DNA of 64,000 nt from an uncultured Pontibacter sp. (GTDB lineage Bacteria > Bacteroidota > Bacteroidia > Cytophagales > Hymenobacteraceae), in NCBI RefSeq assembly GCF_947499215.1, contig NZ_CANMNI010000001.1:620001-684000 (forward strand). Reading direction: 5' to 3'. The notes under the pieces were generated by a model. That model saw nothing but the letters and a program-made list of their open reading frames with translations, did not search any database and was not told the DNA's origin. The translations under genes and the position numbers were made by a program. Of this stretch, positions 3,256-50,013 are shown piece after piece; position 1 is the first letter of the stretch, and the number at the start of each line of letters is the position of its first letter.

Positions 3256-3272
3256 AGTGCCCTTTGCAAGAT

Positions 3273-3322: not shown

Positions 3323-3344
3323 ATACTTTCTGGCTGTACTGTTG

Positions 3345-3608: not shown

Positions 3609-3680
3609 CAGAATAGTGTCGGGTGATGGTTTATACGTAAACAGGCGCAGGGTCACTTTTGATTCAAAACAGACAACAAG

Positions 3681-3866: not shown

Positions 3867-3949
3867 ATAATGCCAAGTCTGTAATCAAGTGAAAAACCTG
3901 TTGATAGGATTTGTGATACATTAAAATATAAAGGAGTCGGTTCAGTCCT

Positions 3950-5563
3950 TTACCTGATGATGGTGACAGTCCCTTTTAAAGTGCCAGCGCAGTCGTGTGA
4001 GGCAACCCAATGATAGACAGCCTCCGGAAGGCCAGTTCCACTCCAGTCGTTAGTATAGTGACTGCTTTCGTACACTTTGCCTCCCCACCTATTGTATACC
4101 TGAAGTTTAGCACCCGCCAAAGCAGGGTCAAGCGCAAAGAATTCGTTTTTACCGTCTCCATTCGGCGTAATCACATTGTAGGTTTTGAAGGCGCTGCCCG
4201 AGACAGATTTCTTAGCGGCGCAGGGGTCGAATTTCATCAGAAAACCATTTGTTTCACCTCTGGTATTCCAGCTGATGTGTTCGGCATTGAGAGGTCCCCA
4301 GAATTGCCCGGAGATGTAAAAGGCGCCGTTTCGTTCAAACGTAATATTGGATATATATCCCCCGGCATTGAAGTGAATGCGCTCTCCCGGGTTTCCTGCT
4401 GCATCGAACTGCTGCAAAAAGGGTTGGAAGACCCAGGCCCCTGCTACGACAAAACCTCCGGAGGGCAGCAGCTTTAACTCCCATCCCAAATCATGTCCCT
4501 CACTTCCCAAGCTCTTGGCCCAGTTTACGGTGCCATTTTCAGCAAGATTGGCCAGAAAAATATCCGCGGGTACTCCCGGTGATTCAACTATACCTGTTTC
4601 TTCTAGTATGATGCCGCCAAAATCAACACGTCCCTTAAACCAGCCTGTCAGGTATATACTTTTTGTTTTGGGCTCAACTTCCAGACTCATTCCAGTACTG
4701 CTCAACCTATCAATGGAATTGTTAAAACCCTTGAGCCAGACCGGGCGGCCTTGCTTGTCTAACTTTGCCACAAAAATGTCATCCCAAGAATCAGGCAGAG
4801 TGGCAATGCCGAGTTGTCCCATTTTGAATGTACCGGTGTATGCTCCCGTCAGGTATACATTCCCGGCCTCATCCAACTCTACTTCTCGGGGATAGACGCT
4901 GCCATCGTGGGTTGACCTATACGACCACATCACTTGTCCTGTCGAAGAAATTTTGACCAAGATTAGATCGCTCCCCCTCGGGTTTTGACTAGTATAAATT
5001 TGATTCTCGAGCTGAACTGCACCCCAGAATTGCACCGGCAATACAACCTCCCCCTCGGAGCTTGCGGTGAGCACGCCCATTACCCTTGCTTCAGCGTAAC
5101 GATTTTTCGTCAGTACACCTTTGGACCAAAGCAACTTCCCGTTGGTATCAAACTTACCGATAAAGGTATTCCAGATACCTTCGCCCTCCAATACGACTTT
5201 ACCATCTATTACTAGTTCTTTTATAAACCCTCCGGCCACGTATAGGTTGCCAAATTTATCTGCCGCCACACCAACATCGCCCCCGGATTGTGGACCACCC
5301 AATGCTTTGGCCCAGAGCACCTGCCCCGCTGGGTTTGCCTTGTACATAAACATGTCTGTACTCTCAATACTGGTAAGCCTGTGGTCACCAATGGTGATGG
5401 TTCCCTCAAAATGTCCCACCGAAATGATGTTGCCGTCTTTATCAACGATGTGACTTTCGATACTATTCATTCCCGTTGATCCGATCTGATGCCCCCACTG
5501 TATCTGCGCATGCAGGTTTAGCGAAAAGAGCCAAAATAAAAGCAGTAGTAAAAGTTTATTCAT
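3950..5563 (-). CDS. Secreted beta-propeller protein with T9SS type B C-terminal sorting domain
   Basis: A 537-residue protein with an N-terminal signal peptide (MNKLLLLLLFW...LHAQ). Repeated blades of about 45-60 residues with motifs such as GNVYLTGAYTG, GNLYVAGGF and DIFVAKLDKQG are typical of SBBP/beta-propeller repeats. The last 85 residues contain VITPNGDGKNE, LQVYNRWGGKVYES and a terminal beta-strand TVTIIR, the signature of the gliding-motility-associated C-terminal domain that directs cargo to the type IX secretion system. It is therefore expected on the cell surface or released. No secretion gene lies nearby. The binding partner of the propeller is unknown. Confidence 0.88.
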   Translation of the reverse strand: MNKLLLLLLFWLFSLNLHAQIQWGHQIGSTGMNSIESHIVDKDGNIISVGHFEGTITIGDHRLTSIESTDMFMYKANPAGQVLWAKALGGPQSGGDVGVAADKFGNLYVAGGFIKELVIDGKVVLEGEGIWNTFIGKFDTNGKLLWSKGVLTKNRYAEARVMGVLTASSEGEVVLPVQFWGAVQLENQIYTSQNPRGSDLILVKISSTGQVMWSYRSTHDGSVYPREVELDEAGNVYLTGAYTGTFKMGQLGIATLPDSWDDIFVAKLDKQGRPVWLKGFNNSIDRLSSTGMSLEVEPKTKSIYLTGWFKGRVDFGGIILEETGIVESPGVPADIFLANLAENGTVNWAKSLGSEGHDLGWELKLLPSGGFVVAGAWVFQPFLQQFDAAGNPGERIHFNAGGYISNITFERNGAFYISGQFWGPLNAEHISWNTRGETNGFLMKFDPCAAKKSVSGSAFKTYNVITPNGDGKNEFFALDPALAGAKLQVYNRWGGKVYESSHYTNDWSGTGLPEAVYHWVASHDCAGTLKGTVTIIR

Positions 5564-30389: not shown

Positions 30390-30432
30390 GTATAATATAT
30401 AGCGAGTTTTATCGTAATCTATAACTTTAACT

Positions 30433-30482
30433 CCACACATAATGCAGATAGTGGGAGTAGATACTCCTGCTAGCAGATAGTT
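30433..30482 (+). repeat. 50-bp boundary repeat, copy A
   Basis: 45 of 50 bases match the block at 45886-45935 (opposite strand). Similarity stops exactly at GTT in both. It contains two direct copies of CAGATAGT, a hairpin GGAGTA-GA-TACTCC and the palindrome CTGCTAGCAG. Interpreted as an attachment-site-like border before an inserted gene cassette. Confidence 0.65.
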
Positions 30483-30990
30483 ATCTAAAATAGGGAATCA
30501 ATGAAAAATCTTTACCTCTTGCTCTTTCTGTTTTTACTTTCATGTCAGCAAAAAGAGCTGGAAAGCGGTAATGAAGATGAATTTAATTATAAAGTAGTAC
30601 CTCGACATTTTGGTGAACCATTACCAAATGACCCATACCTCATGGCATTGTACGAGAAGAATAAGTTAAAAAATGGTGACTGGTATAGAGCAAAAGTTTT
30701 CCTAGAAAAATTCGAATTCCCTCCTGAATATTCTGACAGTACAATCATAAAATTCTTTCATGGTAGGGCTTCATATAAAGACATAGTGGATGGTAAAGGC
30801 ATAAATGCTGTTGTTAGGAATGATACAGGATATGTAAAATTTCAGGCTTTTGAACCAGATCTAGCAAAAGGTGATTCAGTGCAAAAATTGTGGGAAGCGG
30901 TAATAATTAATCCTGCATTACCTGATAGTATTACCTTTACTGTTGTATTAGACTATATAGTATATGGCAGGTAGAACAAATTTAGATAAC
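30480..30990 (+). other. Putative gene cassette flanked by a perfect 10-bp inverted repeat
   Basis: GTTATCTAAA at 30480-30489 and its exact complement TTTAGATAAC at 30981-30990 flank a single AT-rich gene (30501-30974). In integron cassettes, the 5' end (TTRRRY after G) is complementary to the R'' box at the 3' end of the same cassette; this is what is seen. Confidence 0.5.
30501..30974 (+). CDS. AT-rich hypothetical lipoprotein (cassette-like gene)
   Basis: A 157-residue protein with a lipoprotein signal (MKNLYLLLFLFLLSC, Cys15), then a Glu-rich linker and a mixed domain with YRAKVFLEKFEFPPEYSD and ending SITFTVVLDYIVYG. The C-terminal part resembles the TonB/PilZ-sized alpha-beta sandwich loosely, but I do not recognise a family. 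Its codons end in A or T far more than neighbours, a sign of recent acquisition. It sits exactly between the inverted repeats described for the putative cassette. Confidence 0.7.
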   Translation: MKNLYLLLFLFLLSCQQKELESGNEDEFNYKVVPRHFGEPLPNDPYLMALYEKNKLKNGDWYRAKVFLEKFEFPPEYSDSTIIKFFHGRASYKDIVDGKGINAVVRNDTGYVKFQAFEPDLAKGDSVQKLWEAVIINPALPDSITFTVVLDYIVYGR

Positions 30991-31037
30991 CACACCTTTA
31001 CTGTAGCTACGCCACAGCAAAGCCCAGTACGTTAGAC
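30981..31037 (+). other. attC-like recombination site after the 30501 gene
   Basis: AAC at 30988 and GTT at 31031 bound a 46-bp site; the GTT reads GTTAGAC, fitting the integron R' consensus GTTRRRY. The centre contains CTACGCC, shared with the two sites at 44674 and 45059 (minus strand). No integrase is in the window. Confidence 0.45.
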
Positions 31038-31090
31038 CTCTATTCACCTTATAGTCTTTAAGTTTTTAACGATTTATTATTCATTAAGAG

Positions 31091-31456
31091 ATGAATACGA
31101 CACCTGAGCATGATGAACGCATGGCCAATTTGACTTTTGCCTCGGTATATCCGCACTATTTGGCAAAGGTTGAAAAGAAAGGCAGAACGAAAGAAGAACT
31201 GCATCAGGTAATTACTTGGCTAACCGGTTTCAACAACCAAGAACTGCAGGAACTGATTGACGAGAAAACGACGTTCGCCGACTTTTTTACAAGAGCTAAT
31301 CTAAACCAGAATGCTCACCTCATAACCGGGGTTATTTGTGGCTATCGTATTGAGGAAATTGAAAACCCCTTAACCAAACAAGTGAGATATTTAGACAAAC
31401 TGGTGGACGAACTGGCAAAAGGTAAAAAGATGGAGAAAATACTAAGAGATGTATAA
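31091..31456 (+). CDS. DUF2200 domain protein
   Basis: A 121-residue cytosolic protein matching DUF2200 along its whole length: HDERMANLTFASVYPHY near the N-terminus, KKGRTKEELHQVITWLTGFN, and a strongly conserved C-terminal half with NAHLITGVICGYRIEEIENPL and VDELAKGKKMEKIL. The family is widely spread in bacteria, with no known biochemical role; a YdhG/DUF1801-like small fold is possible. The gene starts 54 bp after the GTTAGAC of the attC-like site, so it may be a second cassette or the resident gene next to the insertion. Confidence 0.9.
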   Translation: MNTTPEHDERMANLTFASVYPHYLAKVEKKGRTKEELHQVITWLTGFNNQELQELIDEKTTFADFFTRANLNQNAHLITGVICGYRIEEIENPLTKQVRYLDKLVDELAKGKKMEKILRDV

Positions 31457-38165: not shown

Positions 38166-40796
38166 TTACTCGACCAGTATGTGCTTGCGGTCTTGTATTA
38201 CTTTAAAGCTCTCCACCATCCTCACCGACTCGTGCACATCCTCAGTGAAGATGGCCACAAAGGCGCCTTCTTCGGCGTTTTCGAGTGCGTGGGCGATGGC
38301 GCGCATTTCTTCCGGTATCACCTTCACCTGTATGTGCGGTGCCACCTCTTCTATCCCCTGCATCATGGGCAGGGTTATCTCTTCGGCTGATTTGCCTCTC
38401 AGGTCATTGTCTAAGCGAATAATCACCTCGTCGAAAATCTCGCCGGCAACACGGCCCAGTTCATAGAAATCCTGCGTTCTGCGGTCGCCTACCCCAGCCA
38501 CGATGCCAATTTTGCGCGTCACCTCCAAGTCCTCCATAAAGCCGCCTATGGCCTTCAGACCGCCCACGTTGTGTGCGTAGTCCACCAGCACCTCGAAGTT
38601 CGGGAACTGGAATAGGTTCATGCGGCCAGGCGTTTTGGCCGGTGAAGGTATAAAGGTGCGCAGGGCACGCTTGATATCGTCTATGTCAAAGTGCGATACA
38701 TAGCCGGCCAGTGCTGCGGCCAGTATGTTCTCAATGTTAAATTTAGCTCTTCCGCCAAATGTCAGCGGCACGTCGGCCACCCTGTCAATCCGGATCTTGT
38801 AGCTGTTTTTGAAGATAGAGATATACCCGTTCTCAAAAACTGCCGCCAGTCCGCCTTTGGCAATGTGCTTGAGTATGCGCGGATTGTTCTCGTCCATACT
38901 GAAGAACGCCACCTTGCACTGTAATCCTTCGGCCATTGCGTATACCAGATCATCGTCGGCGTTCAGTATCGCATACCCGTCCTTGCTTACGCTTTTCGGG
39001 ATCACGGACTTCACTTTGGCCAGATCCTCCAAGGTATGGATGTCGCGCAGACCCAAGTGGTCGGAGCTCACGTTGGTCACAATGCCGATGTCGCACTGAT
39101 CAAAGCCAAGCCCTGAGCGAAGCAAGCCGCCGCGGGCGCATTCCAGTACCGCAAAATTCACGGTCGGGTCCTTGAGCACGAACTGTGCGCTGTAAGCCCC
39201 TGTTGTATCGCCTTTCTCGAGCAGCTTGTCCTGAATGTAAATGCCGTCGGTGGTCGTATACCCTACCTGATAACCCTTGCTCTTCACCATGTGGGCGATG
39301 AGGCGGGTTGTCGTGGTCTTTCCATTCGTACCTGACACGGCCACGATCGGAATACGGGCCGGTTTGGTATGCGGAAACAGCATGTCGATCACCGGCTCGG
39401 CCACGTTGCGGGGCAGTCCGTAAGTGGGCGAAATGTGCATCCGGAAACCCGGGGCAGCATTCACTTCCAGCACAGCGCCACCGGCTTCGTTCAGCGGTAT
39501 GGCAATGTCAGTGGTCATCACGTCGATGCCGCATACATCCAGCCCCACTATCCCCGCGATACGCTCGGCCATCAGTACGTTGTAAGGATCCACTAAGTCA
39601 GTAACGTCAGTTGCGGTGCCTCCAGTACTTATGTTAGCCGTACTTTTTAGGTATAGCACCTCCCCTTCAGGCAGAACCGACTGAGTAGTAAGGTTTTTGG
39701 CCTTTAAAATATTTTGTGTGTGCTTGTCAATATTTATGCGCGTGAGTGCTTTTTCGTGCCCGACCCCACGTCTCGGGTCCTTGTTCTCCCGGTCCACCAG
39801 CTGTTTGATCGTGCAGACGCCATCACCAGTCACCATAGCCGGTGTGCGCATGGCAGCAGCCACGAACTTCTTGTTGATCACCAGCAGGCGAAAATCGAAG
39901 CCCTGAATGAAGCGCTCCACCAGCACAGCCTCCGAATACTTCTGAGCGGCGGCGAGGCCTTTGAGGGCATCCTTCCAGTTGGTGATATTAATGGTAGCGC
40001 CTTTGCCGTGGTTGCCGTCCAGCGGCTTCAGCACGAGTGGGTAGCCCAGTTTGTCAACGGCGCGCTTCAATTCCTCTTGGTCGTACACCGTGGTGCCTTT
40101 GGCCACAGGTATACCAGCTTCGTCGAGCAGCTCTTTGGTAGCGTTTTTGTCGCCGGCTATCTCCACGGCGAAGCAGGCGGTGCCGCAGGTCATGGTGGCC
40201 TGTATACGCTTCTGGTTCACGCCATAGCCCAGTTGTATGAGTGAGTGACGGTTGAGCCGGATGTAAGGTATGTTGCGGCTTGCGGCTTCCGATACAATGG
40301 AATATGTGCTCGGCCCGAAATACTCATCCTCCCGGATCTGGTGCAGACGGTCGATGTCTTCGTCCAGTTTATACTTCTCGCCTTTTATCAGGGCCTCGGT
40401 GATGCGCAGCGCGGCATGAGCGGCGTACTCTCCGGCCCTTTCCTCTTGGTAAGAGTAAATAGCGAACTGTGTGCCCTGCTCGTGAGCCATGTAGCAGCGG
40501 CCGAAACCACTCTCCATACCTGCCATGGTTTGCAGTTCGAGGGCGATGTGCTGCACCACGTGGCCAAAGGTAGTACCTTCCTCCACCAACTTAAAAAAGC
40601 CGCCAGCCACGCCTTCGGTGGCACGGTGGTTATACATATCCGGGAAAAGACGTTTTAAGCGGTTTGCAAAACCGGGCACCTCGTGGGTAAGGGTATCAGC
40701 CAGCTCTTCTAAGGCCAACTTCAGTACAATAATTTTTGGGTGTTCAACAGACCAGTAATTCGGTCCGCGCATAATGCGCAAGTCTGTAATCTTCAT
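38166..40796 (-). CDS. cphA: Cyanophycin synthetase
   Basis: An 876-residue enzyme from the ATG at 40796 (MKITDLRIMRGPNYW, the family opening). It polymerises Asp and Arg into cyanophycin, a nitrogen store. Domains: N-terminal region (1-160), ATP-grasp (about 215-475, with VLKPLDGNHGKGA and LEVNAAPGFRMH) and Mur-ligase-like (from 480; P-loop GTNGKTTTT at 489-497; VLECARGGLLRSGLGF; PGRMNLFQF). Length matches CphA1. No cyanophycinase or isoaspartyl dipeptidase gene is in the window. Related Mur-type ligases acting on other acid substrates remain possible. Confidence 0.92.
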   Translation of the reverse strand: MKITDLRIMRGPNYWSVEHPKIIVLKLALEELADTLTHEVPGFANRLKRLFPDMYNHRATEGVAGGFFKLVEEGTTFGHVVQHIALELQTMAGMESGFGRCYMAHEQGTQFAIYSYQEERAGEYAAHAALRITEALIKGEKYKLDEDIDRLHQIREDEYFGPSTYSIVSEAASRNIPYIRLNRHSLIQLGYGVNQKRIQATMTCGTACFAVEIAGDKNATKELLDEAGIPVAKGTTVYDQEELKRAVDKLGYPLVLKPLDGNHGKGATINITNWKDALKGLAAAQKYSEAVLVERFIQGFDFRLLVINKKFVAAAMRTPAMVTGDGVCTIKQLVDRENKDPRRGVGHEKALTRINIDKHTQNILKAKNLTTQSVLPEGEVLYLKSTANISTGGTATDVTDLVDPYNVLMAERIAGIVGLDVCGIDVMTTDIAIPLNEAGGAVLEVNAAPGFRMHISPTYGLPRNVAEPVIDMLFPHTKPARIPIVAVSGTNGKTTTTRLIAHMVKSKGYQVGYTTTDGIYIQDKLLEKGDTTGAYSAQFVLKDPTVNFAVLECARGGLLRSGLGFDQCDIGIVTNVSSDHLGLRDIHTLEDLAKVKSVIPKSVSKDGYAILNADDDLVYAMAEGLQCKVAFFSMDENNPRILKHIAKGGLAAVFENGYISIFKNSYKIRIDRVADVPLTFGGRAKFNIENILAAALAGYVSHFDIDDIKRALRTFIPSPAKTPGRMNLFQFPNFEVLVDYAHNVGGLKAIGGFMEDLEVTRKIGIVAGVGDRRTQDFYELGRVAGEIFDEVIIRLDNDLRGKSAEEITLPMMQGIEEVAPHIQVKVIPEEMRAIAHALENAEEGAFVAIFTEDVHESVRMVESFKVIQDRKHILVE

Positions 40797-41012
40797 GGGA
40801 TTGGGTAAGAAGCTTGTATCGCCTGTCAAATATTATGTAGGGAATGAAGAATTTGCAATCATGTAATGTCTGCTTGCAATACGATTTAGCTTTACAAAAG
40901 ATATAGCCGCTGCGAAAAAAGAAACAATTTTAAGCGGATGATTTAGAGAATTTTTTAATCAAAAGCGAGGCCTCGATTGAGTGGACAGGTATAGCCAGTC
41001 TAATGTGCTGGC

Positions 41013-41048
41013 AAAAAAAATCGGCCGGTCAGAAATCTGACCGGCCGA
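41013..41048 (-). terminator. Terminator of tRNA-Cys
   Basis: A 13-bp GC-rich perfect stem (41021-41033 with 41036-41048), with an A8 run on its left that becomes a U8 run on the minus transcript. Confidence 0.88.
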
Positions 41049-41056
41049 TTAAGGTG

Positions 41057-41127
41057 AGGTAACGAGCGGATTCGAACCGCTGTAGCAGCTTTTGCAGAGC
41101 TGAGCCTAGCCACTCGGCCACGTTACC
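41057..41127 (-). tRNA. tRNA-Cys (anticodon GCA)
   Basis: Read on the minus strand: acceptor GGTAACG pairs with CGTTACC, discriminator T (as expected for Cys), D arm with GCCGAGTGGCTAGGC, anticodon stem CAGCT/AGCTG around CTGCAAA with anticodon GCA, and T arm with GGTTCGAATCC. The CCA end is not encoded. It has its own promoter element and terminator. Confidence 0.96.
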
Positions 41128-41139
41128 CTGATTGGAGTG

Positions 41140-41147
41140 CAAATATA
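41140..41147 (-). promoter_or_regulatory. -7 promoter element (TATATTTG) of tRNA-Cys
   Basis: A TAnnTTTG match on the minus strand, 12 bp before the tRNA 5' end. Confidence 0.65.
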
Positions 41148-41241
41148 AGCAGAGATGTATGCTTGTCAAACTATACACCTATATTTTTTAGTCGCTACAA
41201 GGTATAGCGCTAATTCTAAGGGCATTATTTTTTGTTCCGGC

Positions 41242-41607
41242 TTATTTTGGAAGCGGAGCCCCTACAGGTACGGCACAATCGTGGCCCGGCTGTCCGTGCG
41301 GCGGGTTGGTGCCTGCTGCCACCGAACCGGATGGTTGCGGCTGGAATGTTGGCTGTGGTGATGTCAGTCTAGGCTGGGCCGGCAAGTTGAGCGGTGCGCC
41401 TACCTCGATATCGCAACGGTGACCGGGCTGGCCGTGTTCCGGATTCAGGGCCACATCGCCAGATGGAGCAGCCGTAGCAGCATTGTTCGTATTAGCCGGC
41501 AGGTTTGTGGTCGGGCTGTTCGTATTGCTCGTCTTGCTCTCTCCGTCAGAACAGGCGGTAAAGCCGATCAGGGCGGCGGCCAGCAACAGGTTAAAGGTGG
41601 TTTTCAT
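41242..41607 (-). CDS. Small lipoprotein with duplicated HGQPGHxC motif
   Basis: A 121-residue protein with a lipoprotein signal ending GFTAC (Cys19), an Asn/Thr/Pro-rich linker and two copies of a 20-residue unit: HGQPGHRCDIEVGAPL and HGQPGHDCAVPVGAPL, separated by a Pro/Gln/Ser-rich stretch. Each unit has two His and one Cys, so metal or haem binding is possible but unproven. I recall the same unit at the ends of other small Bacteroidetes lipoproteins; its role is unknown. Monocistronic, next to tRNA-Cys. Confidence 0.8.
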   Translation of the reverse strand: MKTTFNLLLAAALIGFTACSDGESKTSNTNSPTTNLPANTNNAATAAPSGDVALNPEHGQPGHRCDIEVGAPLNLPAQPRLTSPQPTFQPQPSGSVAAGTNPPHGQPGHDCAVPVGAPLPK

Positions 41608-41999
41608 GTAAAATTTCTATAAGGTATATGTCGCTAGCCAATCCCGCCGTACCGAGGAAGAACCGGAGCGCTTTTGTTACAACCGACAAGCTACCAAAAA
41701 GGTGCCGCAAAAACAAAAGTCACACGACAGACGACTACATCTGCCTGCTCAAAAACTATTGGCATCATCCATAACTTTATGCCCTCATTCAAGGTATATT
41801 CTGAAAAACCACTATATCATTAGCCAACCCGCAGCAGGACTTGATCAGATCGTGCGCCTTTAAGCATCAACTGAGCCGTCCTGTAAACTAGGCACTAAAC
41901 TTTGACGGTAACACATTATATACTCTGGCCGTAACAGCCAGTTAGCAACAATGCAGGAGACGAAGCTATGCCTCCTCTCAGTTGCAGTTGATTACAATT
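41608..41999. other. Intergenic region without gene
   Basis: A 392-bp gap between a minus-strand lipoprotein and the acyltransferase. GGTATA occurs at 41623 and 41793. No RNA gene, promoter match or hairpin with T run was found. Confidence 0.5.
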
Positions 42000-43058
42000 A
42001 TGAACAGACTTCTATTCTTAGACGCATTAAGGGGTATTGCCGCACTCTCTGTAGCCCTTTTCCATTATACCTCCGTGTACCGCAGCCTTTACGGACACAC
42101 CTTCTCCCCCGCCTTCGATTTCGATTATGGCCTGTTTGGGGTGGAGCTTTTCTTTATGATCAGCGGCTTTGTAATCTTTTTCAGCTTCGACCGAATCAAG
42201 AGCGGCGGGGAGTTCCTCTTTAACCGGGGCATCCGCCTCTACCCTACTTACTGGTTCAGCATGCTCACCACGTTTGTGGTGGTGCAAAGCTTCGGACTGC
42301 CCGGCTTCGAGACCACGTTTACCGACATGCTCGTGAACCTGACCATGTTCCAAAAGCTGGCCCGCGTGCCCGATGTAGACGGGGTATACTGGTCGCTGTT
42401 TTCGGAGTGGATGTTTTACCTGATGATGCTGGCCCTGTTTATGACCAATAACCTGAAGCGCATCCTGTGGGTTGGGCCGGTATGGGTGCTGCTGAGCCTC
42501 GTGCATAAGTATGCCTTTAGTTTCGGGCCAGTAGGTGCGGTGCTTAACCTGTACCACGGCGTGTTCTTTTATGCGGGTATCCTTTTCTACCTGCTGCGCA
42601 AAAATCCGGAGAAGCAGCCTATCATTATGGGGCACCTGCTCTTCTCCATCCTCGCCATACTTGCCCTATACCTGCCGGAAGGCCTGCCGCATACCTTGGT
42701 GGTGATCAGCTTCTTTGGTCTTTTTTATCTGGGCTTTCAGGGCAAGTTGGAGTTCTTGGTAAACAAGGTGCTGCTATTCTTAGGCAGTATTTCCTATGCG
42801 CTATACCTGATCCACCAGTTTATCGGCTATGTGATCATCAATGAGACCAAACACTTTTTCGGAGACAGCCTGTTGGTGATTATACCGCCCTTGGTTATTT
42901 CGCTCACTGCCGCTTGGCTTATTACCACTTACGTCGAAAAACCCGCTGTAAGCCGTCTTAAGACTTGGTATAAGCAACGGTCAGGGCATGCTTTGCCACA
43001 GGAGAAGAAAGTGCCTGTCAGCGGTTTTGCCAAGCCGGAAACCGCGCCTACGAAATAG
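42000..43058 (+). CDS. Acyltransferase 3 family membrane protein
   Basis: A 352-residue integral membrane protein from the ATG at 42000. It opens with the family signature LLFLDALRGIAALSVALFHY (the catalytic-type His is in LFHY) and FDYGLFGVELFFMISGFVIFFSF; about ten hydrophobic segments follow. YWSLFSEWMFYLMM is the typical middle motif. Members O-acetylate polysaccharides, LPS or peptidoglycan using acyl-CoA. No glycan cluster is nearby, so the substrate is unknown. A long gene-free stretch precedes it. Confidence 0.9.
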   Translation: MNRLLFLDALRGIAALSVALFHYTSVYRSLYGHTFSPAFDFDYGLFGVELFFMISGFVIFFSFDRIKSGGEFLFNRGIRLYPTYWFSMLTTFVVVQSFGLPGFETTFTDMLVNLTMFQKLARVPDVDGVYWSLFSEWMFYLMMLALFMTNNLKRILWVGPVWVLLSLVHKYAFSFGPVGAVLNLYHGVFFYAGILFYLLRKNPEKQPIIMGHLLFSILAILALYLPEGLPHTLVVISFFGLFYLGFQGKLEFLVNKVLLFLGSISYALYLIHQFIGYVIINETKHFFGDSLLVIIPPLVISLTAAWLITTYVEKPAVSRLKTWYKQRSGHALPQEKKVPVSGFAKPETAPTK

Positions 43059-43074
43059 GTATAGCAGCTCTGAT

Positions 43075-43992
43075 TTAGGCCTTAACTTGGGTATAGGCAA
43101 CAGCTATTTCCGCTCCCAAGCGGGCATTGTGCTTAATAAGCGTGATGTTAGCTTCTAGGCTTTCTCCCTGACTATGCTCTGCGATATACTTTAAGAGAAA
43201 AGGTGTAACCGCTTTGCCCTTGACATGCTGCTGTGCGGCGGCGTGCAAGGCTTGGGTGATATACCATTCCATTTCTGGTGCCGGCACTTCGTACTTTTCA
43301 GGTATAGGATTGGCAATTAGTACCGCTCCTTCCAGTCCCAGTTCCCATTTGGTGCGCAACAGATCGGCAATAGCCTGCGGAGCGTCTAGTCGCAAGGGAG
43401 AAGGGAAACCGCTCTGGCGGGAGTAAAAGCTCGGAAAGGCATCCTGCCCCAAAGTAACCACAGGTATACCTTTCGTTTCGAGGTACTCCAGTGTCAGCCC
43501 AATATCCAGTATCGACTTCACACCAGCAGAAACCACAGCCACGGAGGTCTGCCCCATTTCCGTCAGGTCGGCCGATATATCCATCGTAGTCTCAGCGCCG
43601 CGATGCACGCCGCCAATTCCACCGGTTACAAAGACCCGTATACCTGCCATGGCGGCAAGGCGCATGGTCGCAGCCACTGTAGTAGCGCCGTCCAGCTGCT
43701 GGCTGATGACATAAGGCATATCCACCAGACTCACTTTCCAGACGTCCTTGGCTTGGCCCAGATGCTCTATTTGTTGCTCTGTAAGCCCAACACAGCATTT
43801 ACCTTTCAAGATCGCAATGGTCGCAGGTATAGCGCCCGCTTCCCGCACCACCCCCTCGACCTCTAAGGCCGTCTGCACGTTCTGCGGGTACGGCATGCCA
43901 TGCGCGATGATGGTAGACTCCAGCGCCACGACAGGTTTTCCTTGGGTTAGGGCTTGCTGGACTTCGGGATGTATTTCTAGGAAGGGGCTCAT
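43075..43992 (-). CDS. psuG: Pseudouridine-5'-phosphate glycosidase
   Basis: A 305-residue enzyme splitting pseudouridine 5'-phosphate into uracil and ribose 5-phosphate. Signature segments: VVALESTIIAHGMPYPQN, FVTGGIGGVHRGAETTMDISADLTEM, VVSAGVKSILDIGLTLEYLET, FPSFYSRQSGFPSPLRLD and the C-terminal NITLIKHNARLGAEIA. Length is normal. The pseudouridine kinase (psuK) that usually sits beside it is not in this window. It is convergent with the acyltransferase, 16 bp apart. Confidence 0.94.
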   Translation of the reverse strand: MSPFLEIHPEVQQALTQGKPVVALESTIIAHGMPYPQNVQTALEVEGVVREAGAIPATIAILKGKCCVGLTEQQIEHLGQAKDVWKVSLVDMPYVISQQLDGATTVAATMRLAAMAGIRVFVTGGIGGVHRGAETTMDISADLTEMGQTSVAVVSAGVKSILDIGLTLEYLETKGIPVVTLGQDAFPSFYSRQSGFPSPLRLDAPQAIADLLRTKWELGLEGAVLIANPIPEKYEVPAPEMEWYITQALHAAAQQHVKGKAVTPFLLKYIAEHSQGESLEANITLIKHNARLGAEIAVAYTQVKA

Positions 43993-44132
43993 GGGATGAT
44001 CCAGTTCTCTTGCTGTACTTAAAGGGCTCGTGTAAGAGGCGCCAAGGCCATCGACCGTAGCTGGTATTTACACAATGTTTGGACTAAGTTTTTCTTCTTT
44101 GAAGTTTGCTTAATAAATGTCTCTAAAGTCCC

Positions 44133-44642
44133 CTAACCAAGAATTAACTTAGGGTCCAACTTAGCAGTACTAAGGATAAGCTCATAGGCTTTAAGAAAAT
44201 CATTGAGTTTTCTTCTGTCGGTATCGTGGTTAGGCGTATTTACCTGATAGGAGATAGATGACCCGAGCGTTCCAAAGATGATGGAACAAGCTTCTCCATC
44301 CAACACAGTAGGGTGTGGCCCGCCGATAATTTCTGCCTGTTTGATACCCTGTATGGCGTTAACAAGCTCGCTGAATTGCCCAGCCGTTATGATTATTTCC
44401 TTGTCGATGGATTTGGCGGGGTCTATTTGCCGAAGAGAGACTGATTCCACCTTCAACCTGTACGTATTGTCAGAATTGGGGTGTATGATAACTTTTACCT
44501 CAGCATTCACCGGTTTGGCCGCGGTGCTATATACCAAGTTTATGAATTTAATGTCTTGGCTTTGTGCTGTTAGTGACATTACTATTAAGAATGCTATAGA
44601 GAGTGCAGCTCTAATTTTTAATCGGCTATCCATTTTATTCAA
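44133..44642 (-). CDS. Exported hypothetical protein, possible cassette gene
   Basis: A 169-residue protein with a signal peptide (KIRAALSIAFLIVMSLTAQSQ). The mature part, with FINLVYSTAAKPVNAEVKVIIHP, YRLKVESVSLRQIDPAKSIDKEIIITAGQFSELVNAIQGI and TLGSSISYQVNTPNHDTDRRKLNDFLKAYELIL, resembles small beta-alpha periplasmic proteins; I do not recognise a family. It follows the attC-like site at 44674-44731 in the array on the minus strand and is AT-rich. An internal ATG (residue 4) is an alternative start. Confidence 0.65.
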   Translation of the reverse strand: MNKMDSRLKIRAALSIAFLIVMSLTAQSQDIKFINLVYSTAAKPVNAEVKVIIHPNSDNTYRLKVESVSLRQIDPAKSIDKEIIITAGQFSELVNAIQGIKQAEIIGGPHPTVLDGEACSIIFGTLGSSISYQVNTPNHDTDRRKLNDFLKAYELILSTAKLDPKLILG

Positions 44643-44673
44643 ATATTAAGAATCAGTTTATAAAATTTAGATC

Positions 44674-44731
44674 CACGGATTGTATAGAAGGCGAACGAGG
44701 CGTAGCCTAAGTGTGGCTTATATGTCTTGTT
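44674..44731 (-). other. attC-like site 2
   Basis: A 58-bp site on the minus strand from AAC (complement of GTT at 44729) to GTG at its other end. It matches site 1 at 45059-45116 at about 47 of 57 positions, including CTACGCCTCGT. Its terminal triplet GTG instead of GTT suggests decay. Lies between the genes at 44769 and 44642. Confidence 0.5.
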
Positions 44732-44768
44732 GCCATAAATTTTATTATTTTCAACTACTTTAGAATCT

Positions 44769-45050
44769 CTACATACTATTATTCAAACTCCACCAGCCAA
44801 TAATTTCGGCAGCAATTTTTTCTACATCTTTTAAATTTGGGGACAGCCCATAATTGACAGTTAGTTCACTATCTAAAACACGAGTGATTTTTCCCATGTC
44901 AGCCCCTTTGTATAAATAACTTAATATCTTATGATTTAAAGAGTCGAATTCGTCTTTTGGTGAACCAGGAATCAAGTCGCAAGAATTCAGAATTTTTCTT
45001 AACTCAAGAAACCTCTCTTGAAACTCTTTTTTTAATTCACTATTATTCAT
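44769..45050 (-). CDS. Small AT-rich hypothetical protein, possible cassette gene
   Basis: A 93-residue soluble protein: charged, helical, with ELKKEFQERFLELRKILNSCDLIPG, FDSLNHKILSYLYKGADMGKITRVLDSELTVNYG and IAAEIIGWWSLN. It has no signal or membrane helix. Size and style are like small cassette-encoded or immunity-type proteins, but no family is recognised. It begins 8 bp after the AAC...GTT site 1 (minus direction), as expected for a cassette gene whose start lies near the recombination point. Confidence 0.65.
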   Translation of the reverse strand: MNNSELKKEFQERFLELRKILNSCDLIPGSPKDEFDSLNHKILSYLYKGADMGKITRVLDSELTVNYGLSPNLKDVEKIAAEIIGWWSLNNSM

Positions 45051-45058
45051 TTCAAATT

Positions 45059-45116
45059 AACGTCTTGTATAAAAGGCGTACGAGGCGTAGCCGAAGTATG
45101 ACTTGTATACCTTGTT
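45059..45116 (-). other. attC-like site 1
   Basis: On the minus strand AAC (45114-45116) to GTT (45059-45061), 58 bp. Inside, GTATA/TATAC and AAG/CTT can pair (L-box-like) with a short unpaired spacer between them and the AAC/GTT ends, as in folded attC sites. It follows the stop of the gene at 45133. Confidence 0.55.
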
Positions 45117-45888
45117 GGCATGTGCCTTTTTATTACTTCTGTTCCATATATAGATTCCAAAGCTCTTGCATTGGCACAGCCCTTCTGCTTACATTATTCA
45201 AATCCTTACCTTCTGCTGTCCAGAGAAAAGGGAAGAAATGGATGCCTTTCTTACCATCAACTTTTTTTACTTCTTCTCTCCAGTTTGTCCACCTTAGCCC
45301 TTCATAAAATTTGTCGATGTCACCTGCAAAACAAAAGGATATAAAATCAGAGTAACTTAATCCTAATGACTCCCACTCCAGATTGTCAGGCGAGAAGTAG
45401 TATACCTTGCCAATCTCTTCTTGCCCGAATGCTCCCGCATTTATGGCGAAGAAACCACCAAGCACATCATCAGCTACCAAAAGAAATGAGGGCTGCTCTC
45501 CTTCATTCGTATAAGACTTTCCCCTGTTCCACTCCATGATGCTTCTGTCAAGCTTCTCAGAACCTGAGCCTAAGATGCGTATCCAACCATCATCAACCAG
45601 TATTCCGCCAGATTCGTAAACGATTGCTCCCATCGGTGAGCGGGTAGTAACCTGCAACTGTAGCAGGGCGTTCTCCGCCTTCTGCTGTTGTTTAGGCAGA
45701 ATTTCTACTTTGTTACTCGCTTCTTTTAAACAACCCTGCACTAAAGTCCATCCTGAGTCTTCTTTATTTATAAGCTCTGATAAAGGGCGAGAACTACTGC
45801 TCTGTGCATTAGCCATAGTTAAAGAAGATAAAAGCAAAAAGGTGGACACAACTATCTTTTTCAATTCATGTTTTAGGTTAATGCCAAC
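45114..45888 (-). other. Putative gene cassette flanked by a perfect 8-bp inverted repeat
   Basis: On the minus strand the cassette starts GTTGGCAT (45881-45888) and ends with its complement ATGCCAAC (45114-45121), enclosing only the DUF2625 gene. The 5' edge coincides with the end of the 50-bp shared block. Confidence 0.5.
45133..45864 (-). CDS. DUF2625 domain protein, exported, cassette-like gene
   Basis: A 243-residue protein with a signal peptide (MKKIVVSTFLLLSSLTMANAQ). The rest matches DUF2625: LSELINKEDSGWTLVQ, GAIVYESGGILVDDGWIRILGSG, FLLVADDVLGGFFAINAGAFG, VYYFSPDNLEWESLGLSYSDFISF and GDIDKFYEGLRW, ending RRAVPMQELWNLY. The DUF2625 fold is related to SMI1/KNR4-like and similar small domains; function is unknown. 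A signal peptide on this family is notable. The gene is flanked by an 8-bp inverted repeat and sits in the cassette-like array. Confidence 0.82.
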   Translation of the reverse strand: MKKIVVSTFLLLSSLTMANAQSSSSRPLSELINKEDSGWTLVQGCLKEASNKVEILPKQQQKAENALLQLQVTTRSPMGAIVYESGGILVDDGWIRILGSGSEKLDRSIMEWNRGKSYTNEGEQPSFLLVADDVLGGFFAINAGAFGQEEIGKVYYFSPDNLEWESLGLSYSDFISFCFAGDIDKFYEGLRWTNWREEVKKVDGKKGIHFFPFLWTAEGKDLNNVSRRAVPMQELWNLYMEQK

Positions 45889-45935
45889 TATCTGCTAGCA
45901 GGAGCACCTTCTCCCACTATCTGGACTATGTGTGG
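45886..45935 (-). repeat. 50-bp boundary repeat, copy B
   Basis: The second copy (minus strand) of the block at 30433-30482, 45 of 50 identical, with the CAGATAGT direct repeats and the CTGCTAGCAG palindrome; it ends at GTT, where the DUF2625 cassette begins. Confidence 0.65.
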
Positions 45936-45991
45936 CATACAGTGTATTGGGTTGATTTCCAACCTCATCAACCTTTACCTCAAGCATAGCA

Positions 45992-45999
45992 CAAAGCTA
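45992..45999 (-). promoter_or_regulatory. -7 promoter element (TAGCTTTG) upstream of the array
   Basis: A TAnnTTTG match on the minus strand 56 bp before block B, in the same place relative to the block as the element at 30382 is to block A. Confidence 0.4.
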
Positions 46000-46064
46000 A
46001 TATAGCAGATTTAGCTGGATTATTATTACCCGTAAGTTAGCAGCGAGAAAAATAGCCCTAAAAA

Positions 46065-46094
46065 CAAAAAAGGCCCCGGATTGCTCCGGGGCCT
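46065..46094 (-). terminator. Terminator of rpsA
   Basis: A 10-bp GC-rich stem (46071-46080 with 46085-46094), with an A-rich run on its left giving a U run on the minus strand. Confidence 0.88.
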
Positions 46095-46117
46095 TTCATT
46101 ATAGGACAAGCTTAGAA

Positions 46118-48007
46118 TTAAGCGTTGTTCTCTTCTTCAGCAGACGCTTCGTCGTCAGAACCTTTTGCCTTTTTAGCGGCAGCGGCTTCCAATTTCTTCA
46201 CGCCAGCTTCTTTCTCGTTAGAAAGCATTTGCTCTTTCAGGGCAGAAAGCGCGTCCAAGTCACCTAGGGTAGACTTGTTCTCAGCTTCTTTCTGAACTTT
46301 AGGAGCTTTCTCTTTCTTCTCACCAGCTGCTGCAGGAGCTGCTTTCTTAGTGGCCTTCGCAATACGCGCGTTGTCAGCCTCTGAGTAAGTAGCAGTATGC
46401 GAAAGGATGATCTTACGGTCGTCCTTAGAGAATTCAGTTACTCTGAAGTCAAGCTGCTCACCAGCTTCTACCTGAGAACCGTCTTCTTTAGCAAGACCTT
46501 TCGGGAAAGCGAAACCTTCGATACCGTATGGAAGCTCCAGTGTAGCGCCTCTGTCTGACTTCTCAAGAACTGTAGCTTTGTGCACAGAACCGATGTTGAA
46601 TACAGACTCGAACGTATCCCAAGGGTTCTCCTCCAGCTGCTTGTGACCAAGAGCAAGTCTTCTGTTAGCTACGTCAAGCTCCAGAACAACTACGTCAAGG
46701 TTTTCACCAACTTTAACGAATTCAGATGGGTGCTTAATTTTCTTAGTCCAAGACAGGTCAGATACGTGTACCAGACCGTCAACACCTTCTTCCAGCTCCA
46801 AGAACAGACCGAAGTTTGTCAGGTTGCGAACTACGCCAGTGTGCTTGGTGCCAACTGCATATTTCGTGATAACATCTTCTTTCGTCCATGGATCTTCAGT
46901 AAGCTGCTTGATGCCCAGAGACATTTTGCGCTCTTCGCGGTCAAGTGTCAATACAACTGCCTCAACCTCGTCGCCTTGCTTGATGAAGTCCTGTGGGTTG
47001 CGCAGGTGCTGTGACCAAGACATTTCAGAAACGTGGATCAGACCTTCAACGCCTGGCATCAGCTCAAGGAATGCGCCGTAGTCAGCCACATTAACGATCT
47101 TACCTTTCACTCTAGAACCAACTTCGATTTCAGCTGGCAGAGCATCCCATGGGTGCGGAGTAAGCTGCTTCATGCCAAGAGAGATACGCTTCTTGTCATC
47201 GTCGAAGTCAAGCACTACCACGTTCACCTTCTGGTCAAGGTTCAATACTTCCTCTGGGTGATTAATACGTCCCCAAGAGATATCTGTGATGTGAAGCAGA
47301 CCGTCTACGCCACCAAGGTCGATGAACACACCGAAGTTTGTCATGTTCTTGATAACGCCTTCCAGAACCTGACCTTTCTCCAGGTTGTTCAGGATGGCTG
47401 CACGCTGCTGCTCCAGGTCTTTCTCGATAAGTACTTTGTGAGATACAACCACGTTGTCGAAAGCGGCGTTGATTTTCACAACTTTCACTTCCATCTTCTT
47501 ACCAACGAACACGTCAAAGTCACGGATCGGCTTCACGTCGATCTGAGAACCTGGCAAGAAGGCTTCAACACCGTAGAGGTCCATGATAAGACCACCTTTG
47601 GTTCTTCTCTTAACCACGCCTTCCAGCACAGAATCGTTCTCAAGTGCGTCGTAGATACGAGCCCAAGCGCTAACGATTTTCGCTTTCTTGCGGGAAAGGA
47701 TAAGCTGGCCGTTCGGGTCTTCCTGGTCTTCGATGAAAACCTCAACCTCGTCACCAACTTTCAGCTCAGGCAGGTCTCTGAATTCAGAAACCGGCACTAG
47801 GCCGTCAGATTTGAAACCGATGTTCAGGATCACGTCACGATCAGTGATACCAACAACAGTTCCTTTAACAACCTCCTGCTCCTGTACGGTAGTCAGGGTG
47901 TCATCATACATTTTTTCCATTTCAGCGCGCTCTTCTTTGCTGTAGCCGCCACCGAAACCTTGAGACTCAAACTTGTCCCAATCGAAATTTTCTGGAGAAT
48001 TACTCAT
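46118..48007 (-). CDS. rpsA: 30S ribosomal protein S1
   Basis: A 629-residue protein that helps the ribosome bind and unwind mRNA. Six S1 (OB-fold) repeats are visible, for example GVVKRRTKGGLIMDLYGVEAFLPGSQ, GVIKNMTNFGVFIDLGGVDGLLHITDISW, GKIVNVADYGAFLELMPGVEGLIHVSEMSW and GVVRNLTNFGLFLELEEGVDGLVHVSDLSW, each followed by a VVVLDFDDDKKRISLGMKQL-type tail. The C-terminus is a charged Ala/Glu/Lys tail. Longer than E. coli S1 (557), as usual in Bacteroidetes. The gene contains no GGTATA motif, in contrast to most of the window. Confidence 0.96.
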   Translation of the reverse strand: MSNSPENFDWDKFESQGFGGGYSKEERAEMEKMYDDTLTTVQEQEVVKGTVVGITDRDVILNIGFKSDGLVPVSEFRDLPELKVGDEVEVFIEDQEDPNGQLILSRKKAKIVSAWARIYDALENDSVLEGVVKRRTKGGLIMDLYGVEAFLPGSQIDVKPIRDFDVFVGKKMEVKVVKINAAFDNVVVSHKVLIEKDLEQQRAAILNNLEKGQVLEGVIKNMTNFGVFIDLGGVDGLLHITDISWGRINHPEEVLNLDQKVNVVVLDFDDDKKRISLGMKQLTPHPWDALPAEIEVGSRVKGKIVNVADYGAFLELMPGVEGLIHVSEMSWSQHLRNPQDFIKQGDEVEAVVLTLDREERKMSLGIKQLTEDPWTKEDVITKYAVGTKHTGVVRNLTNFGLFLELEEGVDGLVHVSDLSWTKKIKHPSEFVKVGENLDVVVLELDVANRRLALGHKQLEENPWDTFESVFNIGSVHKATVLEKSDRGATLELPYGIEGFAFPKGLAKEDGSQVEAGEQLDFRVTEFSKDDRKIILSHTATYSEADNARIAKATKKAAPAAAGEKKEKAPKVQKEAENKSTLGDLDALSALKEQMLSNEKEAGVKKLEAAAAKKAKGSDDEASAEEENNA

Positions 48008-48561
48008 AATGTTTTACTGCTCTGGAGAAGCCACCGACTTAGAGCAATAGGCCGGTTTGGTTTGGTTTTACATTTCCCCGGACGCGATGCCGAGGCCATT
48101 CACTCGAATGAAGGGGCAAAAGTAATAAATACTTTAAAAGTATGCTAGTATATAGTATAGATTTCGCAAAAAGCATATAAGGTATAAGTACCTGAAAGAG
48201 AAGCAACTTGACATATTTTATGCAGAGAACCTGAGCCAACCGAAAGAAAGGTATAGTAAAACCGCTATTTCTTAGCGACGCATGAGCGCTCATCAGCCAA
48301 AGTTCGGGCCCCTTTACATACTACCTTTCTAGCATTCCCCTCCTCCTTCCTAAGCCTTTACCAAACCTAGTGCGAGCGAACAAAATCTAAGGTATAGCAG
48401 GAGTCCAATGGCAGTCCTCCACCCCTTGTCCTGTAAAAATCATCGATGAGGTTGCCTTAACTGACTATCCAATTGCAGACTTCAAGTTAGTCATTAAGTA
48501 AACTAATACCTTTACACTGATTGTGAATCAGTTGAATCAAATGGACTAAATATATTAGTAA
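48008..48561. other. Intergenic region upstream of rpsA
   Basis: A 554-bp gap. It holds the rpsA leader and promoter element (48117-48124) and three GGTATA sites (48181, 48250, 48391). Nothing else was recognised between about 48260 and 48561. Confidence 0.5.
48117..48124 (-). promoter_or_regulatory. -7 promoter element (TACTTTTG) of rpsA
   Basis: A TAnnTTTG match 109 bp upstream of the ATG, implying a leader of about 100 nt, long enough for translational control. Confidence 0.5.
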
Positions 48562-49077
48562 TTATATACTCCTATTTTTTCCTACGTTCAGGTACAAACC
48601 CCAGTCTTGGTTGTAGGCATTTAGGTGCAGTTGCAGGAAGGTTTGCAGGGATGGCTTAGATGGTTTTTGAATAAGTTTTAGCCCCGCCTCTTCAGGCGTC
48701 CGGTCGCCCTTGCGGGAGTTGCAGCGGAAGCATGCCGTCACCAAATTGAGCCAGTTGGTTTCCCCTCCCCTAGAGCGGGGTAGCAGGTGATCGAGGGTTA
48801 AGTTTTTAGTAGTGCCGCAGTACTGGCAGAGGAAATTGTCGCGACGGAGCACGTTGTGCCTACTAAGCGAAATACCGTAATAGGGCACTTTTACGTAGCG
48901 CTGCAGCCGAATAACAGAAGGAACGGGGTAAGTGGTGCTGACGGTGCGCAAAACGGCGCCATTGGCCTTGGAAATGAGTTCAGCCTTTTCGAGATAGACC
49001 AGCAAGAAGGCTTTCGTCACCGTGCAGACGGCGATTGCGCTGAAGTCTTGGTTTAATATCAGCACTTTGTCTCTCAT
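48562..49077 (-). CDS. HNH endonuclease family protein
   Basis: A 171-residue protein. The C-terminal half is a zinc-stabilised HNH nuclease domain: CQYCG, then LTLDHLLPRSRGGETNWLNLVTACFRCNSRKGDRTPEEAG, where DH and the later N/H form the metal site and the two CxxC pairs bind zinc. The N-terminal half (VLILNQDFSAIAVCTVTKAFLLVYLEKAELI) is typical of the stand-alone HNH proteins very common in bacteria and has no known function; a repair or defence role is possible. A long inverted repeat precedes its start. Confidence 0.9.
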   Translation of the reverse strand: MRDKVLILNQDFSAIAVCTVTKAFLLVYLEKAELISKANGAVLRTVSTTYPVPSVIRLQRYVKVPYYGISLSRHNVLRRDNFLCQYCGTTKNLTLDHLLPRSRGGETNWLNLVTACFRCNSRKGDRTPEEAGLKLIQKPSKPSLQTFLQLHLNAYNQDWGLYLNVGKNRSI

Positions 49078-49081
49078 GGTC

Positions 49082-49148
49082 TTTCTTTGAACTTACGCTA
49101 TGCTTCTACGAGAATTAACCAACTCGTTATAGCCTAAGTTCAAAGAAA
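49082..49148. repeat. Long inverted repeat (20-bp arms, 19 of 20 match)
   Basis: Arms 49082-49101 and 49129-49148, spacer 27 bp; the arms begin TTTCTTTGAACTTA. It lies between two minus-strand genes, directly before the HNH start. There is no T run. It could be a miniature transposable element, a long RNA hairpin controlling the HNH gene, or a read-through-limiting structure. Confidence 0.6.
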
Positions 49149-49159
49149 AGTGCTGAGAA

Positions 49160-49936
49160 TCAGGAAAAAATACGCTTGATAATGCGAAGATTGTGGGAAT
49201 AGCGCTTGCGCTCGGTATTGTAGATGCCATTGTGGTCCAGCGTGTCGATGCGGATCTCGCCGTGAGCGTGCATGATCTGCTGTCCCTCCAGCATAATGCC
49301 TACGTGGGTAATGCGCCCTTCCTCATTGGCAAAATAAGCCAGATCGCCGGGTTGGGTCTGCGTGGCAAAGTGCACCTCATCGCCTACCGCCACCTGCTGA
49401 CTGGCGTCGCGGGGCAATTGGTAGCCGCAAAGGCCGTATACCTGTTGTGTAAAGCCCGAGCAGTCGATCCCGAACATAGACTTGCCACCCCATAGGTAAG
49501 GAGCTTTCAGGAAGCCCAAGGCCAGTTTGGTGAGTTGAGCTGTTGTAACCTGCACACCGGGATTGGTTGCCCGACCGCTGTACTGGTAACTCTGCCCGTC
49601 AATCCGCAGGCTCATGCCGTCAAAAAACGGCAAATAAGCCCCTATACCTACCGGAATGCGCATATCGGCATTGCTTACCACCTGCACGATATCGAGCGCT
49701 CGCGGGTGTTGCGCCGCCTTCCACTCTTGGTAATAAGTCGCCGAAACAGGCACATACTGCTTGTAATCGATCCAGCCACGGTATTCATCCGTGGCCAGCT
49801 GTATCTGCACCCAGTTACCCTGCTTGGTGATTACCTCTAGACACTCCCCAAAGAGCACCTGCGTCACCATTTCAGCCTTGTCAGAGGGCTCAGCGCGCAT
49901 CGGCACCAGACTGAGCATGCATATTCCGTAGTCCAC
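49160..49936 (-). CDS. NlpC/P60 (C40) peptidase with SH3-like N-terminus
   Basis: A 258-residue protein. Residues 1-65 form a bacterial SH3-like domain (ICMLSLVPMRAEPSDKAEMVTQVLFGECLEVITKQGNWVQIQ), residues 66-125 a second one, and residues 130-258 the NlpC/P60 cysteine peptidase: YLWGGKSMFGIDCSGFTQQVY (catalytic Cys in DCSGF), THVGIML (His) and IMHAHGEIRID (third residue His). Such enzymes cleave D-Glu-diaminoacid bonds of peptidoglycan peptides. No signal peptide is evident, which suggests a cytoplasmic role in peptide recycling (YkfC-like). Confidence 0.9.
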   Translation of the reverse strand: MDYGICMLSLVPMRAEPSDKAEMVTQVLFGECLEVITKQGNWVQIQLATDEYRGWIDYKQYVPVSATYYQEWKAAQHPRALDIVQVVSNADMRIPVGIGAYLPFFDGMSLRIDGQSYQYSGRATNPGVQVTTAQLTKLALGFLKAPYLWGGKSMFGIDCSGFTQQVYGLCGYQLPRDASQQVAVGDEVHFATQTQPGDLAYFANEEGRITHVGIMLEGQQIMHAHGEIRIDTLDHNGIYNTERKRYSHNLRIIKRIFS

Positions 49937-49970
49937 TTTTTAAAATTTTGAATGAGTGAATAGTTTTTTG

Positions 49971-50013
49971 AATTTTGAATGAGTAGATGATTCAGATATC
50001 ACTCATTCAAAAT
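49971..50013 (-). terminator. Hairpin after smpB
   Basis: A 13-bp perfect stem (49972-49984 with 50001-50013), overlapping a direct repeat AATTTTGAATGAGT (49944 and 49971). AT-rich, with A/T runs on both sides. It overlaps the last codon of smpB by design or chance. Confidence 0.55.

Follow-up and report, generated by a model that had tools for sequence, protein, structure and literature searches.

The window analyzed here is a 64,000-nt stretch of contig C1 from the 4.3-Mb genome of an uncultured Pontibacter sp., referred to below as the own genome. At 44018-45947 it holds an array of three genes, each followed by an attC-like site, and at 30421-31038 it holds a second unit with a single gene. 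Their features are as follows.

45878-45947, minus strand: orphan attI (match to attI model R3 at C1:665878-665943, E 8.6e-9), which aligns with 22 integrase-linked attI
45060-45887, minus strand: cassette 1, with the DUF2625 gene (ORF 45133-45864, 243 aa; PF10946, E 6.4e-88)
45056-45121, minus strand: attC of cassette 1 (58-nt core 45059-45116; 88.3 bits with model R1, 76.8 bits with R2)
44675-45060, minus strand: cassette 2, with a 93-aa ORF (44769-45050)
44671-44736, minus strand: attC of cassette 2 (58-nt core 44674-44731; 73.6 bits with R1, 51.3 bits with R2)
44133-44642, minus strand: gene of cassette 3, a 169-aa ORF
44018-44084, minus strand: degenerate attC of cassette 3, R' lost (29.5 bits with R2, E 1.1e-5)
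30421-30490, plus strand: second orphan attI (R3 match at C1:650422-650490, E 4.1e-11), with its crossover GTT at 30480-30482
30501-30974, plus strand: cassette gene of the second unit, a 157-aa ORF, lipoprotein-like by reading
30982-31038, plus strand: attC of the second unit, of a short class, identified by reading

A preliminary description of the three minus-strand genes had them separated by two 58-nt sites agreeing at about 47 of 57 positions, and this layout stands: the cores 44674-44731 and 45059-45116 are identical at 47 of 58 positions and are true repeats, with copies in the same genome at E 1e-19 to 4e-11. On the plus strand the cores run from AAC to GTT, as described, the one at 44674 opening with CAC (GTG on the gene strand), and the DUF2625 cassette is indeed bracketed by GTTGGCAT/ATGCCAAC, an exact complement. 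Family searches with the 93-aa and 169-aa ORFs found no family, and in Rfam no family matched the sites in window positions 40000-50000. The degenerate attC at 44018-44084, the attI at 45878-45947, and the second unit at 30421-31038 go beyond that description. The attI of the array lies about 170 nt past the stop codon of an S1-domain gene (rpsA-like; PF00575, E 1.7e-80), and cassette 1 starts at its crossover GTT (45886-45888). The bottom strand of attC 45056-45121 is the plus strand of the window. The 51-nt element upstream of the DUF2625 gene is not an unrelated repeat, since it aligns with integrase-linked attI.

The second unit lies downstream of a signal peptidase gene (Peptidase_S26; PF10502, E 1e-44), and a search with its 157-aa ORF found no Pfam family. 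Its attC at 30982-31038 has an arm, TTTAGATAAC, that exactly complements the cassette start GTTATCTAAA (10 nt, perfect); model R2 has no match there (locus L263), so the site is assigned by reading. A DUF2200 gene is located downstream (31091-31456).

Eight sites of the own genome, aligned with tight borders, were used to build the covariance model R1, which finds 31 sites in that genome at E≤1, 30 of them at E≤0.02; some stand at cassette spacing, among them C1:109934, 110438, and 110997 and C3:21128, 21733, and 22389. In the unfitted eight-site alignment, 83.6% of the pair cells hold standard pairs, compared to 27.0-41.5% in slid versions. Across 26 sources, R1 recovers 177 sites at E≤0.05, and model R2, built from the best 150 sites, recovers 114 + 110 = 224 from the same sources at E≤0.01. 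The 150-site alignment, which is fitted to its model, has 94.2% of its pair cells paired (slid controls reach at most 40.2%) and 509 both-side changes, compared to 157.5 when shuffled. The R positions read AAC in 214 and GTT in 220 of the 224 sites, and the bottom strand is the more stable one at 167 of 180 sites (60-72 nt). Since single sites fold with weak z-scores (-0.29 to -1.39), the structure is visible only in the comparative alignment. Strand polarity may rest on the asymmetry of the spacer and a conserved G-T pair. On these grounds, the 58-nt sites are attC-like, that is, covarying bottom-strand hairpins of which this Pontibacter genome has about 30. The models come mainly from attC of the 64-69 nt class; size classes of about 50-54, 61-72, 86, and 130-132 nt with common ends are seen in loci L133, L135, L137, L140, L145, and L146.

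If attC is completed in an excised circle, the pairing partner of its R'' arm should be the beginning of its own cassette, not the DNA that follows the site. We compared the six bases beyond R'' with both in 195 cassettes, defined as the intervals between consecutive sites (median, 602 nt). The match to the own cassette start is 4.90 of 6, against 2.37 for the own 3' flank and 2.15 for shuffled cassette starts (maximum 2.42 of 1,000 shuffles); 26 of the 195 cassettes match at 3 or fewer positions. For 21 cassettes from other families, with coordinates entered by hand, the value is 4.43, compared to 2.22 shuffled (maximum 3.38 of 5,000), with 11 perfect and 8 matching at 3 or fewer. In 180 of 191 cassettes, the cassette strand carries the longest ORF; the median distance from stop codon to attC is 14 nt, and GC content is 37.8% in cassettes, compared to 43.8% for 14 array loci. 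Three pairs among the 195 cassettes are homologous between genomes at blastn E≤1e-20, and in one homologous pair of array cassettes the homology spans -5 to +1 relative to the borders.

Two strong TIGR02249-type loci are present in the own genome, each followed by attI and attC sites.

L040:6096-7571: intact integrase, 491 aa, TIGR02249-type, below the cut-off
L027:5900-7273: broken integrase, C-terminus lost (by reading), TIGR02249-type, below the cut-off

The intact integrase lies on the same contig as the window array, and the closest integrase of this type in the genome is about 256 kb from the array. TIGR02249 matches the integrase in two stretches, 7-180 and 242-315, under the cut-off; at E 1e-5, this model also gives matches in all 14 control genomes. 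A tyrosine recombinase with an integron-type insert had been anticipated; the recombinases were found, one intact and one broken, but the insert is absent. Alignment with 30 canonical IntI sequences places the missing block around 'KYPNA...DPRT..RHH', corresponding to the additional domain of about 42 residues (the patch). Where it can be measured, the KGxKDR-to-HxLRH spacing is 64-65 in 66 of 69 relatives of the new integrase and 106 in 27 of 31 canonical IntI. In a tree, IntI (30 sequences) and the new integrases (21) form separate groups, each with 100% bootstrap support, and a clade exclusive to the two is rejected (p-AU 0.008, with columns mostly empty in the new integrases omitted). The rooting depends on long XerC/D branches; the topology test omitted one long XerC-like row, and both trees omitted the partial L138 and the over-long ORF L194. 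Messier and Roy, by the title of their 2001 report, reportedly found the additional domain of IntI to be necessary for activity, which counts against the role proposed below for the patch-less enzyme.

The AlphaFold2 model (mean pLDDT, 88) has two similar beta-beta-alpha-beta-beta-alpha-beta modules preceding the core. The HARP family (PF07443) matches 6 of 41 relatives (best E 1.5e-7), and the own-genome integrase has no HARP match up to E 5. With the isolated N-terminus, Foldseek gives HARP 4o66 (probability 0.80, E 0.086), and comparison with XPB 2fz4 gives Z 6.0 and an rmsd of 2.2 over 56 aligned residues. Searched by sequence against the PDB, the first 200 residues gave no significant match. 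HARP is not among the matches listed in the XPB structure comparison, which is no argument against it. Retroviral integrase cores, at Z of about 5, account for many of those matches, so the modules could have a generic alpha/beta arrangement. HARP is a protein that binds distorted DNA or single-strand/duplex DNA. The two modules may be HARP/XPB-like, and we hypothesize that they could act in attC recognition.

Upstream of both own-genome integrases, on the minus strand, there is a small divergent gene with a zinc-type motif, C..C...GR.DK.(F/Y)CS..C (L040:5618-6076 and L027:5379-5765). The motif occurs in 26 of 34 rows from Hymenobacteraceae and in 17 of 66 others, where the rows include some genomes twice and some without upstream DNA, and the others include one Xer control. 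The product is a possible accessory factor. Between them, the arrays of the two integrases also contain a gene pair, made up of a HigA-family antitoxin and a weak match to a Txe/YoeB toxin, and a mercury transporter, MerTP (L027:9629-10247, L040:8718-9317).

In all 22 integrase loci of the family, TAGTT occurs 128-169 nt past the integrase stop codon, at the end of a segment that aligns over a conserved core. Of the 20 loci that have a site further downstream, 16 show 5 or 6 matches out of 6 between the bases following TAGTT and the first attC; among the exceptions, L135 has 4, and L134, L141, and L152 match best at a greater distance. Model R3, made from 26 attI sequences including four orphans of the own genome, finds attI in 50 of 80 family genomes, at 5-32 copies each and only in genera g1, g2, g3, and g6. 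There are 18 attI in the own genome at E<1e-4, and two of them follow its two integrases. We examined the surroundings of 48 attI, these 18 and the 30 best from other genomes, omitting two own-genome matches at E 0.015-0.021. All 66 R2 sites around them are downstream and in the expected orientation. No correctly oriented integrase match (tblastn 1e-5, ±1.5 kb) accompanies 35 of the 48, yet 30 of these 35 have attC. The first-cassette match after attI is 5.08 of 6, compared to 2.45 shuffled (37 attI).

The S1-domain gene upstream of the window attI is matched in 40 of 41 Pontibacter genomes, and the BLAST match runs on into attI only in G000 and G079. When the rpsA 3' region was searched with R3, attI appeared in 12 of the 30 loci examined (L377-L406), 11 of them in the same orientation and about 430 nt or less from the end of the rpsA match, with that of L402 about 1.4 kb off. 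In G023, a full integrase platform follows rpsA directly (L147: the rpsA match ends at 2263, and the integrase occupies 2927-4381), and by coordinates G028 has one at this place too. Platforms therefore recur at the rpsA 3' region, and the window attI may be what is left of one whose integrase is gone. The same could hold for orphan attI at large, which would then be platforms minus the integrase gene, with cassettes that arrived earlier and no action in trans. With the platforms of G023 and G028 in its favor, this explanation, which concerns only the orphan part of our reading, is a credible one that falls somewhat short of an even chance, given how numerous orphans are (18 attI to two integrases here, 5-32 attI per positive genome), the 35 of 48 attI without an integrase match, and the occurrence of rpsA upstream of the integrase in L147 only among 34 integrase loci, several of which have little upstream DNA.

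The DUF2625 gene is found in 19 of the 80 family genomes and is not solely a cassette gene, because it is present too in a genus without attI. In four Pontibacter genomes, its copies share 91-94% DNA identity (91-93% between cassette 1 of the window and its counterparts in three other genomes) and their surroundings differ. The gene follows an orphan attI in G000, an attI of differing sequence in G055, an integrase-linked attI in G069, and in G073 a non-attI sequence ending AGG/TTGGCAT, with no intact attC. The homology sets in within 8 nt of the GTT, except for G000-G069, where it extends further because the attI are alike, and between G000 and G055 it stops within 1 nt of the attC GTT.

Within the window array, cassette 1 obeys the complementarity of arm and cassette start (5/6), and cassettes 2 and 3 break it (1/6 and 0/6, read by hand). 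The sites of the latter two also have altered R boxes: R' of the cassette 2 attC is GTG instead of GTT, and the site is possibly impaired. Along with the R' lost from the third attC and the absence of a nearby integrase, such decay would suit an inert fossil, whose cassettes were once inserted and are now immobile. We regard this as possible but on balance somewhat doubtful, since the attI and attC of cassette 1 are intact, relatives of this cassette occur elsewhere in three other genomes, and the contig also carries an intact integrase gene. The array is one orphan-attI array of the proposed cassette system, and probably a partly decayed one.

The search of the genome and its relatives that the preliminary description called for thus led from the 31 own sites at E≤1 to attC in 50 of 80 family genomes, the same 50 that have attI, plus a weak match in G035 (E 0.04). 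Of these 50, 46 have an integrase match at E≤1e-30, in some cases partial or broken; so do 2 of the 30 others. G009, G029, G038, and G055 have many attI and attC and no integrase match at this threshold, so their enzyme is either lost or diverged; G004 and G062 have a weak integrase match and neither attI nor attC. Sites lie downstream on the expected strand in 20 of the 22 family integrase loci, up to 28 after a single integrase in L137; L144 has none, and L148 has one, upstream. One opposite-strand match each occurs in L140, L143, and L146, those of L143 and L146 overlapping a match on the other strand. Two findings could have undone the attC identification, namely sites unrelated to gene borders and a gene order identical in all relatives; instead, the sites track gene borders and cassette content varies among the sampled genomes. 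Covarying hairpins, placement at gene ends, orientation relative to attI, and complementarity of the arm to the own cassette start all bear the identification out.

Beyond the family, R2 matches were obtained in at least 22 of 395 genomes of the phylum, a lower bound because the filters were strict and 13 candidates were scored per genome. Patch-less integrases with downstream R2 sites were seen in other families at L212, L213, and L217-L220. Among 64 named loci outside Hymenobacteraceae, 12 have R2 matches, and all 20 matches are downstream on the expected strand; these loci include Maribacter, Arenibacter, Aquimarina, Flaviramulus, Gillisia, Aureibaculum, and a Bacteroidales MAG. The remaining named loci may have sites unlike model R2, or none. 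Linkage to an array is not seen for every patch-less relative, since no R2 site is present in the DNA examined for the XerA-type loci L223-L226 or for L211 and L215, from another family of the order. L328 and L346, in MAGs labelled Neomarinimicrobiota and Ca. Sabulitectum, also have a similar integrase followed by a site, which reflects either a wider spread or a binning error.

The remaining alternatives fare poorly. A canonical IntI, past or present, could have recombined the sites, leaving the patch-less recombinase a bystander; such enzymes are common in the phylum's other classes (over the cut-off in 105 of the 395 genomes), but the own genome has none over the cut-off, the same class has one only in G116 in this sample, and all 22 loci have attI behind the patch-less integrase, with a matching first-cassette junction, so we find this very improbable. 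Fainter still is the prospect of Xer/dif-type (pdif-like) modules recombined as duplexes by XerC/XerD: the integrase core does resemble XerA, but the sites are strand-polar covarying hairpins with an asymmetric spacer, and their distribution tracks a dedicated integrase with an adjacent attI. REP-like hairpins dispersed over the genome, or terminators, that just happen to lie where genes end can practically be dismissed, for despite the hairpin shape, intergenic position, and multiple copies, the arm complements the start of its own cassette, all 66 sites keep one orientation relative to attI, 29 of the 30 family genomes without attI have no site, and the same cassette is found GTT-bounded at different places.

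We conclude that the window array very likely belongs to an integron-type gene-cassette system of Bacteroidia. The integrase would bind the folded bottom strand of attC, a cassette would be cut out as a circle via recombination at the R-box GTT, and circles would be inserted at attI (TAGTT), so that each cassette would enter right behind attI and always the same way round. The elements for which the sequences offer direct support are the attC hairpin, the position of the crossover, one cassette at varied places, attI beside the integrase, and orphan attI with cassettes. We infer that the enzyme is the patch-less tyrosine recombinase and that it recombines single-stranded attC. It may also serve orphan attI in trans, as DUF2625 is the first cassette at integrase-linked and orphan attI alike, unless the orphans are platforms whose integrase was lost after the cassette had arrived. 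A bolder reading is a separate Bacteroidia integron lineage with patch-free single-strand attC recombination, tandem HARP/XPB-like N-terminal modules reading folded DNA, and one integrase serving a dozen or more chromosomal attI (a polycentric integron). This we put forward as a tentative and somewhat unlikely proposal, whose odds are lowered by the complete platforms at the same rpsA place in other genomes.

These results suggest that genes are shuffled by a system that would escape searches based on the patch. As far as their available text goes, published surveys pick integron integrases by the patch domain (PMC2426708, PMC9668308), and the available text on IntegronFinder 2.0 names one complete integron in Bacteroidetes proper, in Salinibacter (PMC9024848). 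Our literature search, with most subscription journals and preprints outside its reach, did not find a description of the system. If the system is as we propose, with large arrays in Cytophagales, Flavobacteriales, and perhaps Bacteroidales, a large pool of cassettes has gone unnoticed. Such a patch-less system would also make testable the need for the patch in attC recombination, the idea that single-strand recombination predates the patch, and the use of attI in trans at many loci.

Among known systems, XerA-type recombinases (PDB 4a8e, 5hxy) come closest to the catalytic part of the integrase in both sequence and fold, but the new integrase differs from them in its N-terminal extension, adjacent attI, and cassette array. 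Its N-terminus may be like the HARP/XPB modules for damage recognition, but with Z below the level that would exclude a common arrangement. The array had been likened to a cluster of attC sites lacking an integrase (CALIN), and it does contain two or more attC at distances below 4 kb (45056, 44671, 44018) with no integrase nearby; however, it starts with a recognizable attI and so is not a bare CALIN, and 30 of the 35 orphan attI examined likewise have downstream attC.

The closest parallels are the sedentary chromosomal integrons with IntI, as in Vibrio and Treponema, which are alike in having an integrase, an attI, and one-orientation arrays of mostly single-ORF cassettes, and whose attC share the R box, unpaired spacer, stem, variable terminal part, and GTT crossover. 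Measured against the functional definition of an integron, the system has attC with a folded bottom strand, R boxes, and a covarying stem; an attI that adjoins the integrase and is joined to the first cassette at GTT; and cassettes that are mostly single-ORF, uniform in orientation, and, to judge by genome comparison and sequence fossils, mobile. In contrast to IntI, the Pontibacter-type integrase is without the domain of about 42 aa, has an N-terminal extension, and falls outside the IntI clade. Whereas an integron has one attI in the available text of PMC3607928, this system has 5-32 attI per positive genome.
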